A stretch of 64,000 nucleotides of DNA from Candidatus Saccharimonadota bacterium (GTDB lineage Bacteria > Patescibacteriota > Saccharimonadia > Saccharimonadales > UBA10212). The stretch lies in NCBI GenBank assembly GCA_016176605.1, contig JACOWW010000002.1:336968-400967 (forward strand). Reading direction: 5' to 3'. Of the stretch, positions 47,060-50,360 are shown in pieces. Numbering within the stretch: the first letter of the stretch is position 1; each line of letters starts with the position of its first letter. Under the pieces are notes generated by a model. It was given only the letters and a program-made list of their open reading frames with translations, was not told where the DNA came from and did no database searches. The position numbers were made by a program, and so were the translations under genes.

Positions 47060-47341
47060 ATGGATCGAAGCCTTGAAGACTTGCTGGAAGGCCCTGACTA
47101 TACGACTACGTGGTTTGGGAACGGCCGGACTGCCGAACTGCTTGGAAGGGTCAAGCTGGCTGGCGGCTTGGTTTTAATGATGGCCGATGTGGTGATTTTA
47201 GAAAAATGTCTGGGTCGCAAGTATGATCCAGTCCATGATGCGCCACACCGAAATCTTGAATACAATCCTTGGGGGGCTAATCCAAATAGCCCAACTTATC
47301 CGTACGAACTGGAACTTTCACCTAGAAAATGGGCTAAATAA
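47060..47341 (+). CDS. Hypothetical protein
   Basis: ORF MDRSLEDLLEGPDYTTTWFGNG...; ends inside the leuS 3' end. Confidence 0.4.
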   Translation: MDRSLEDLLEGPDYTTTWFGNGRTAELLGRVKLAGGLVLMMADVVILEKCLGRKYDPVHDAPHRNLEYNPWGANPNSPTYPYELELSPRKWAK

Positions 47342-50300
47342 CCAAACTAACCAAGCGGCCGGGAACATAAATTGCTTTTTTAACCTTCTTACCAGCCAGA
47401 TTTTTTGCGACTTTTTCGTCATTTTTAGCGGCTTTGATGGCTTCTTCTTCCGTGACATCAGCCGGCAGCAATAGTTCAGCGCGCACTTTACCATTGATTT
47501 GTACAGCGATGGTTATCAGTTCTTCTTTAACAAGTTCTTCGTTCCAAGCCGGCCAATTGCTGACGTGAACTGATCCGGATTGGCCTAACTCCGCCCAAAG
47601 TTCTTCGGTTATATGGGGTGCGAACGGCGCGAGTAGCTGTGTTAAAGCAATCAAAGCATCTTTCCAGGCCTCACTTGCCAAAGTAAAGTTGTGCTTGCTT
47701 TTGAGCTTATAAAGATTATTGACGTATTCCATTAAGGCCGCAATTGAAGTGTTGAATCCAAGTTCTTGCATGTCCTGGCTAACCTTTTTGATCGTTTTAT
47801 GGACCGTGCGCATAATTTGCGTTTCCAGCTCGGCATTATGCCCAATACTTTTTGCTTTTTGCTTTTTGCTTTTTGCTTCATCCAAGAATTCTTGGATGAG
47901 CGTCCAAGTACGCTGAAGGAACCTGTAGGTGCCGCCCAGCCCCTCGACGCTCCAGGCCGCGGATTGGTTCCATGGTCCGATAAATAACTCCAGCAGGCGG
48001 ATTGAATCAGCGCCGTAACCCTGTTTGATTAAATTATCTGGTTCGATAGTGTTATTCCAGCTCTTACTCATTTTTTTACCGTCAGGTGCCAATATCATGC
48101 CATGATTGCGTAACGTAGTGAACGGTTCGTCAAAATCAATCAGTTTTTCGTCATACATGACTTTTGTCCAAAAACGGGCGTACAAAAGGTGCATTACGGC
48201 GTGTTCGGCGCCGCCGATGTAGTCATCAACCGGCAGCCAAAAATCTACTTTAGTTTTATCGAAGGCTTTTTTATCATTATGCGGGTCGGCAAAGCGCAAA
48301 AAGTACCAACTAGAGCAGGCGAAGCCATCCATGGTATCTGTTTCACGCTTTGCAGCGGCGCTGCATTTAGGGCATTTTACGTTTACAAATTCAGGTGCAT
48401 TAGCCAATGGACTGTGGCCGTCACCGCTCGGTTCGTAACTTTTAATTTCGGGCAATACGACCGGCAGGTCTTTATCCGGCACCGCTACAGCGCCATCTTT
48501 TGGACAATGGATTATTGGAATCGGTGCCCCCCAGTAGCGCTGGCGGCTAATCAGCCAGTCCCGGATTTTATAATTTACTTTTTCTTTGGCTTGGCCTCTT
48601 TTGGCTAAATCTTTAACAACATTTTCGCGCATTTCACTAGTAGTCATACCGTTGTACTTGCCAGAGTTCTTCACTATTCCTTCGCCAGTGTAAGCTTGTT
48701 TCGGATCGGCATCTTTTTGATCGAAAGTCTGGACAATCGGCAAATCAAACTTTTTAGCAAATTCCCAGTCGCGTTCATCGTGCGCTGGGACGGCCATAAT
48801 TGCGCCAGTACCATAACCAGGTAAAACATAATCGGCAACCCAAATAGGTATCTTTTCTTTGTTGGCTGGATTAACTGCATAGACACCAGTAAAAACACCA
48901 GTTTTTTCGCGCTCGGTTTCCATGCGATCAATTTCTGATTTACGCTCAGCCTGCTCTATGTAATCTTTAACTTCTTTAGAGATGCTTAACTTGTTAAGTA
49001 TCTTGTGTTCCGGTGCCAAGACTAAAAAGGTTGCGCCGTAGATAGTATCTGGCCGGGTTGTAAAGACTTTTATCTTAGGCTCGATGTTGTCGATTATTTC
49101 CGGGAATTCAGTCATCCCACTAGATTCATTAAAGTGCCCCTTACCAATTAGAAATTTGAATGTAGCATTCGGAAAATGTTTCTTATAAAAGTCTATTGAT
49201 GAAACAGAAATATACTTATCATTATCTGAATAATAAATAGTTATTCGGCCAGCTAAGCGGTTTATTTTTTCCCAATCAAACTTTATTTCTGCAAATTTTC
49301 TGACTGCATCCCAATTCACCTCAGGGTATTTTAATTTCAGATGCCTCCAATCTTGCCTGGGATTAACCGGTGCGACTAGGATTAGTCCGTCTGCTTTTTT
49401 ATTGGCAGTCTGCAGCAAGTTCAAGGCAGCTGGAGCGCCCAGGCTATGCCCCGCAATTATTGCACCTTCCTCGAACTCTCCGAGAAGTGTCTTATTCCAT
49501 TCTTCGATTTTTGGGTGATCAGGTGTAGGCATGTTTGGAACTTTTACGATCCAGTTTTTTGAGCCTAAAGTACTCTTCAGCCAGGGAAACCAATTCTCGC
49601 GCTTGTGACCAGATACACCGTGCACTACAAGACACTCTTTCTTCTCTTTCTCGTATATTGAGAAATCTATCTCCGCCCCTTGACTGCGGCCTATCCAGTT
49701 ACGCTGCATGGCTTTGATAGCCTCGGACCAATTAACATTGTCTAGGTCGTCGGCTAGCCTATCGGCGTAGTCTGTGATCTTGAAGAACCACTGTTTCAAG
49801 GCTTTCTTTTCGACTAAATTACCACAGCGCCAGCAGCGACCGTCTTCAACCTGTTCGTTAGCCAGAACGGTTTTATCAAAGGGGCACCACCACTGTAAAC
49901 TTTCTTCTTGATAAGCCAGTCCGCGCTTGTGTAACAGTAAAAAGAACCACTGGGTCCACTTGTAATAGCTTGGGTCGGTGCTGTTTATTTCGCGTGACCA
50001 ATCATAAGAAAAGCCCATCTGCATCAACTGCTGCTTAAAGTTCTCGACATTCTTAGCTACTGCCTCTTGGGGACTAATGCCGGTCTTAATGGCATAGTTT
50101 TCGGCCGGCAAACCAAAGGCATCCCAGCCCATGGGATAAAGTACATTGTCGCCACGCATCCGGTTGTAACGGGCTATAGCATCACCGATGGTGTAGTTGC
50201 GCACATGGCCGACATGCATAGCCGCACCGCTGGGGTACGGAAAATATTCCAAAACATAACGTTTCGGTTTGGTTTTGTCTTCTGTGGCTTGGTAAATCTT

Positions 50301-50360
50301 AGATTTTTCCCAAACTGCCTGCCACTTGGGCTCAATTACCTTCGGATTATACCGCTTCAT
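47334..50360 (-). CDS. leuS: Leucyl-tRNA synthetase with in-frame alpha/beta-hydrolase insertion
   Basis: HVGHVRNYTIGD, CP1 VFTTRPDTIYGATF, GTGAIMAVPAHDERD, KKMSKS; 1008 aa because of about 190-aa insert. Confidence 0.97.
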   Translation of the reverse strand: MKRYNPKVIEPKWQAVWEKSKIYQATEDKTKPKRYVLEYFPYPSGAAMHVGHVRNYTIGDAIARYNRMRGDNVLYPMGWDAFGLPAENYAIKTGISPQEAVAKNVENFKQQLMQMGFSYDWSREINSTDPSYYKWTQWFFLLLHKRGLAYQEESLQWWCPFDKTVLANEQVEDGRCWRCGNLVEKKALKQWFFKITDYADRLADDLDNVNWSEAIKAMQRNWIGRSQGAEIDFSIYEKEKKECLVVHGVSGHKRENWFPWLKSTLGSKNWIVKVPNMPTPDHPKIEEWNKTLLGEFEEGAIIAGHSLGAPAALNLLQTANKKADGLILVAPVNPRQDWRHLKLKYPEVNWDAVRKFAEIKFDWEKINRLAGRITIYYSDNDKYISVSSIDFYKKHFPNATFKFLIGKGHFNESSGMTEFPEIIDNIEPKIKVFTTRPDTIYGATFLVLAPEHKILNKLSISKEVKDYIEQAERKSEIDRMETEREKTGVFTGVYAVNPANKEKIPIWVADYVLPGYGTGAIMAVPAHDERDWEFAKKFDLPIVQTFDQKDADPKQAYTGEGIVKNSGKYNGMTTSEMRENVVKDLAKRGQAKEKVNYKIRDWLISRQRYWGAPIPIIHCPKDGAVAVPDKDLPVVLPEIKSYEPSGDGHSPLANAPEFVNVKCPKCSAAAKRETDTMDGFACSSWYFLRFADPHNDKKAFDKTKVDFWLPVDDYIGGAEHAVMHLLYARFWTKVMYDEKLIDFDEPFTTLRNHGMILAPDGKKMSKSWNNTIEPDNLIKQGYGADSIRLLELFIGPWNQSAAWSVEGLGGTYRFLQRTWTLIQEFLDEAKSKKQKAKSIGHNAELETQIMRTVHKTIKKVSQDMQELGFNTSIAALMEYVNNLYKLKSKHNFTLASEAWKDALIALTQLLAPFAPHITEELWAELGQSGSVHVSNWPAWNEELVKEELITIAVQINGKVRAELLLPADVTEEEAIKAAKNDEKVAKNLAGKKVKKAIYVPGRLVSLVI
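49080..49655 (-). other. RBBP9/YdeN-like serine hydrolase domain embedded in LeuRS
   Basis: CLVVHGVSGHKRENWFPW, GHSLG nucleophile elbow, YYSDNDKYIS, GKGHFNES. Confidence 0.85.

Follow-up and report, generated by a model that had tools for sequence, protein, structure and literature searches.

The window analysed here, a 64,000-nucleotide stretch of a contig from a Candidatus Saccharimonadota bacterium (JACOWW010000002.1), contains leuS, the gene for leucyl-tRNA synthetase (LeuRS), on its minus strand. An earlier sequence-only reading of this DNA had described a LeuRS that is continuous over 1008 amino acids despite a serine hydrolase embedded in its CP1 editing domain, and the gene is indeed a single open frame, running from 50360 to 47334 without interruption. 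The features considered below are as follows.

47334..50360, minus strand: leuS, the LeuRS gene (1008 aa, stop codon included)
49683..50360, minus strand: N-terminal part of LeuRS, ending at NWIGRS and with HVGH within it; 91% identical to the same-genus genome G002
50216..50205, minus strand: HVGH (residues 49-52)
49074..49655, minus strand: serine hydrolase of YdeN/RBBP9 type, embedded (residues 236-429); in the congener its place is taken by a hairpin tip of six residues, GGTKKT
49443..49445, minus strand: Ser306, the predicted nucleophile in GHSLG (residues 304-308, 49451..49437); 112/112 and 10/10 embedded copies
49218..49220, minus strand: Asp381, the predicted triad acid in YYSDND; D or E in 108/112 and D in 10/10 embedded copies
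49134..49136, minus strand: His409, the predicted triad base in GKGHF; 111/112 and 10/10
48576..49067, minus strand: native CP1 editing domain (PF13603), after the insert; 90% identical to the congener over 104 aa
within 48576..49067, minus strand: TTRPDT editing motif (residues 434-439)
within 48576..49067, minus strand: GTGAIMAVPAHDERD, the HDERD-motif segment (residues 517-531)
48060..48074, minus strand: KMSKS (residues 763-767)

The protein scores 1038.7 bits against the TIGR00396 leuS_bact profile (cut-off 548.4), and Pfam places tRNA-synt_1, the PF13603 LeuRS editing domain (residues 423-585, E=6.1e-64), Anticodon_1 and Ser_hydrolase on it, all above cut-off. HVGH, TTRPDT, GTGAIMAVPAHDERD and KMSKS, which had been thought to look intact, are all present and intact in the LeuRS sequence. 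An AlphaFold2 model of the full protein, made with an alignment of 27 insert-bearing LeuRSs, has a mean pLDDT of 87 and is predicted to have the LeuRS fold (TM 0.88 to E. coli LeuRS 5on2). Solved LeuRSs match residues 1-239 and then from 426 onward, leaving the insert unaligned.

The insert lies in the hairpin with which the CP1 editing domain begins, a few residues ahead of the TTRPDT strand, and the protein reads GAEIDFSI, then the hydrolase, then IKVFTTRPDT. The boundaries first proposed, 49080-49655, correspond to residues 236-427 (49655..49080), and we take the hydrolase to residue 429. Its identification as about 190 residues of RBBP9/YdeN type also held when the Pfam search and the structure modelling that had been proposed as checks were run. 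Searched alone, the insert matches Ser_hydrolase (PF06821) over profile positions 2-168 of 172 (E=3.7e-20; 73 bits, cut-off 22), a complete domain, and it matches Bacillus subtilis YdeN (PDB 1uxo) by sequence at E=2.8e-15. A model of the insert by itself, with 33 relatives in the alignment, reaches a pLDDT of 92.9 and a pTM of 0.90, and its top PDB matches are YdeN (1uxo, TM 0.87) and RBBP9 (2qs9 and 7oex, TM 0.78-0.84), so that the predicted fold is that of an alpha/beta-hydrolase. We read the insert as a domain that probably folds independently of LeuRS. Intein-type families were absent from the Pfam and NCBIfam match lists for the protein.

By alignment, Ser306, Asp381 and His409 occupy the Ser-His-Asp positions of PF06821. 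In the main clade of embedded relatives (n=112) the serine is present in 112/112, a count that is partly selected since the pattern-found copies were picked on the nucleophile-elbow motif, and the histidine in 111/112, with one gap. Among copies found by profile and not chosen by the elbow motif, serine and histidine are present in 21/21, and ten further embedded copies, the window's included, have all three residues (10/10 each). The triad first claimed was thus borne out for Ser306 and His409. Its acid had been left between Asp379 and Asp381, and column conservation selects the latter: the Asp381 column holds 79 D and 29 E in the 112 relatives, whereas the Asp379 column is variable. The glycines of the HG motif and of the elbow vary in some embedded copies. 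Because the triad is conserved and the fold is predicted, the hydrolase is probably active.

At the insert site, the same-genus genome G002 reads GAEIDFSVGGTKKTIGVFTTRPDT, that is, only GGTKKT and no hydrolase, even though its LeuRS is about 90% identical to the window's on both sides. No other genome of the window's 16-genome family has a hydrolase match inside its LeuRS frame, and the window's own genome has no second copy. In the insert's second half the G+C content is 34%, versus 46% for the remainder of leuS. The empty congener site, the absence from the family, the lack of another copy and the low G+C together indicate that the window's insert is a recent lateral gain. The best free-standing match among relatives is about 35% identical, and the plasmids and phages searched held no free-standing source above 60% identity.

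Other LeuRSs of the window's family differ in the same region. In five of them (L032, L034, L037, L038 and L041) the N parts are 78-90% identical to the window's and CP1 only 33-48%, as if the CP1 editing domain had been exchanged as a unit; L037, L038 and L041 have FSAHFEAF at the TTRPDT position. Three others (L043, L044 and L045, from G012, G005 and G003) carry a NUDIX-like domain, about 150 aa long, downstream of HDERD, a site that is also occupied in many of the phylum's over-long LeuRSs.

Far from being a one-off, the insert belongs to a widespread and recurrently acquired architecture. A degenerate pattern (WIG[KR]SxG, HG and [GA]HSxG), for which no matches are expected in shuffled window sequence, was found in 3 of 393 genomes of the window's order and on 93 contigs of an 84,980-species collection. 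Two of these matches (L105 and L135) are due to chance, and the remaining 91 are LeuRSs whose corresponding slot contains a hydrolase, a lower bound, as the pattern demands the nucleophile elbow and limited spacings. The architecture is therefore not unique to the window. Almost all carriers are Patescibacteria (Kaiser-, Taylor-, Doudna-, Lipton-, Vogel-, Nomura-, Uhr- and Kerfeldbacteria, among others), and seven records are archaeal, mostly DPANN (mostly Pacearchaeota and Woesearchaeota).

A search of 287 genomes of the phylum with a profile built from the inserts extends this distribution to other sites. The 22 best matches all lie inside LeuRS, 18 of them in the CP1 slot and four (family f98) in the loop that follows RQRFWGAPIP. 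Other matches in long frames lie in LeuRS at a later CP1 site (G495), before CP1 (G609) and in the loop after RQRxWG (G620 and G642), as well as in the IleRS of G642, at the start of CP1, and in the ValRSs of G596 and G400. Related hydrolases are thus carried at three LeuRS positions besides the CP1 hairpin. Among the matches listed, 29 of 30 deep insertions are in Leu/Ile/ValRS, 26 of these in LeuRS, and the only one outside an aminoacyl-tRNA synthetase (aaRS) is in a fusion between glycosyltransferases (G547). ValRS was considered as an equally frequent host and rejected, with two over-long ValRS frames (G435 and G433) among 39 genomes. In two contigs (G560:C15 and G554:C1) LeuRS lies within open frames of more than 24,000 aa, where masking is possible.

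Comparisons between hosts and inserts suggest different histories for the two. The insert nearest to the window's is that of Candidatus Liptonbacteria nzgw432 (L094), which fills the same LeuRS slot and is 64% identical, in a host LeuRS whose identity to the window's is just 46% in the N part and 53% in CP1. The L094 host is itself nearest to that of L138 (75%), which carries an insert of the main clade, and main-clade inserts are only about 25% identical to the window's. The saccharibacterial L154 has a host nearest to the insert-free L236 of the window's order (68%), yet it carries a main-clade insert. The nearest hosts of L188 all have a CP1 hydrolase; its own CP1 slot is a 61-residue loop, and another hydrolase lies at a later site of the same LeuRS. 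We counted as separate events only insertions at different positions or in different hosts and mismatches between host and insert. A 64% identical insert in a host that is about 50% identical, together with the other mismatches, suggests that the hydrolase domains move and are replaced separately from the LeuRS that carries them. In the tree, the main clade of 112 (SH-aLRT 100) is entirely LeuRS-embedded, with no free-standing member in the sample. The same quick tree splits window-type inserts from this clade, but the AU test does not reject the two as one clade (p=0.52), and separate origins of the two types are not claimed.

Serine hydrolases are not the only enzymes found inside these synthetases. 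NUDIX is matched in 20, Ser_hydrolase in 8, HAD_2 in 4, histidine phosphatase in 2 and Ham1p_like in 1 of 32 Leu/Ile/ValRSs, which were picked for their length or for an embedded hydrolase and, as a selected sample, give no prevalence. The IleRS of G642, examined by eye, combines a hydrolase, a NUDIX domain and a histidine phosphatase, and three IleRSs or ValRSs (L191, L193 and L194) have two to three inserted enzymes each from among hydrolase, NUDIX, HAD and histidine phosphatase. A HAM1/XTPase-like domain lies within the LeuRS CP1 of L112 and L190, together with a hydrolase in L112.

The reading we favor is that a YdeN/RBBP9-type hydrolase was acquired laterally into an exchangeable slot, the tip of the hairpin at the start of CP1, and that it may act there as an active aminoacyl or acyl hydrolase coupled to LeuRS, a proposal about which our own judgment is evenly balanced. 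A role coupled to LeuRS is suggested because deeply embedded copies occur almost only in Leu/Ile/ValRS and because the largest clade has no free-standing member. The likeliest chemistry would be aminoacyl or acyl hydrolysis (of an ester, a thioester or an N-terminal peptide bond) through an acyl-enzyme at Ser306, and the domain could serve as an accessory deacylase or as a leucine-releasing aminopeptidase next to the retained native editing site. An aminoacyl ester is a chemical analogue of the substrate of RBBP9. RBBP9 itself, the closest relative to have been characterised, is a serine aminopeptidase that requires a free alpha-amine (PMC8866121). Its amine-binding Glu108, however, aligns by our reading with an Arg in the family profile, where the window's own alignment is gapped, and without conservation of this residue the transfer of RBBP9 specificity is uncertain. 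The varying position of the insert among LeuRS sites also speaks against a coupled hydrolase, as it gives the domain no constant placement relative to the tRNA 3' end, and there is no evident need for further editing, since the native editing residues are retained in 27 insert-bearing LeuRSs.

Ranked below this is a less probable but serious alternative, in which the hydrolase is an unlinked passenger that does the unrelated job of free-standing YdeN-like enzymes and LeuRS is simply an insertion-tolerant, always-expressed carrier. Patescibacteria commonly have free-standing homologs of about 190 aa, and of the 22 genomes with an embedded copy, 17 yielded no other member of the family (Fisher p=0.04, given as description only). 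That LeuRS tolerates insertions in general is also suggested by the other enzymes lodged in such proteins: NUDIX is common at a second site, and domains of the HAD, HAM1 and histidine phosphatase types are present too. What sets the coupled hydrolase above such a passenger is the near-exclusive choice of hosts among the deep insertions listed and, again, a largest embedded clade in which no free-standing protein was sampled.

The most specific form of the coupled reading, with which its probability overlaps, would make the hydrolase a strict second post-transfer editing site that deacylates mischarged or D-aminoacyl-tRNALeu. We regard this as unlikely. The window's insert is anchored beside the editing strand, the hosts are branched-chain editing synthetases, one IleRS has a hydrolase at the corresponding start of CP1 and the triad is strictly conserved, all of which would fit such a site; but the native editing motifs are kept, hydrolases occur at other LeuRS sites too, the Glu108 of RBBP9 falls on an Arg position of the insert profile, and the inserted NUDIX, HAD, histidine phosphatase and HAM1 domains are not expected to cleave aminoacyl esters. 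Similarly tentative is the broader proposal that Patescibacteria and DPANN share a recurrently refilled LeuRS socket, whose occupant would act in cis as a second deacylase on aminoacyl-tRNA or aminoacyl intermediates and, as a mobile editing module, would be acquired, exchanged and relocated among sites independently of the host. A purely structural role, as a non-enzymatic spacer or a module that binds tRNA or protein, would suit an insertion at a surface hairpin and the variable HG-motif and elbow glycines but is improbable given an essentially invariant Ser and His and an acid kept in nearly all copies. An assembly chimera at the insert junctions has a negligible probability and was rejected, for although the source is one MAG that is 89% complete and G+C drops within the insert, both junctions are in frame, the congener has the empty site, the 64% identical domain of L094 fills the same slot in an independent 840-kb contig, and related domains do so in more than 90 other assemblies, one of them a record titled chromosome (CP066682.1).

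Few known proteins are as constrained as the aminoacyl-tRNA synthetases, yet here an apparently active enzyme has repeatedly entered the proofreading domain of LeuRS and been swapped among lineages as a module, with the architecture recurring in roughly 100 further ultra-small bacteria and archaea. If the coupled hydrolase acts on aminoacyl compounds, it would give very reduced genomes a new level of quality control in translation or of amino-acid supply; if it does not, LeuRS would be a natural scaffold on which unrelated enzymes dock. Our search, which covered an open-access library, found no published description of a serine hydrolase inside LeuRS, and the word 'hydrolase' is absent from AARS Online (PMC11580382). 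This agrees with the earlier statement that no described aaRS with a serine hydrolase embedded at this site was known. The comparison across genomes shows the insert to be widespread; a previously described subtype was not found in the library searched.

Extra domains in aaRSs are already known, and what is new is a recurrent, exchangeable serine hydrolase in the editing region of LeuRS. The window's enzyme shares with bacterial LeuRS (TIGR00396; 1h3n, 5on2) its full length, CP1 editing domain, HVGH, KMSKS and TTRPDT, whereas at the position of the hydrolase the canonical enzymes have just a short hairpin. YdeN aligns over nearly the whole inserted domain and shares its triad and predicted fold (PF06821; TM 0.87 to 1uxo) but is a free-standing protein of 192 residues. 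Human RBBP9, a serine aminopeptidase, is likewise similar in fold (2qs9 and 7oex) and triad positions; it too is free-standing, and its amine-holding Glu108 falls on an Arg position of the profile, as described above. Patescibacterial LeuRSs with a NUDIX domain (e.g., G003, G005 and G012) also have a foreign hydrolase in the editing region, but NUDIX is another fold and enters at another point, later in CP1. NCBIfam NF040702, compared by family name only, is a class I aaRS, an IleRS, that resembles the window's LeuRS in carrying an enzyme domain, which is a GNAT domain instead of a serine hydrolase.
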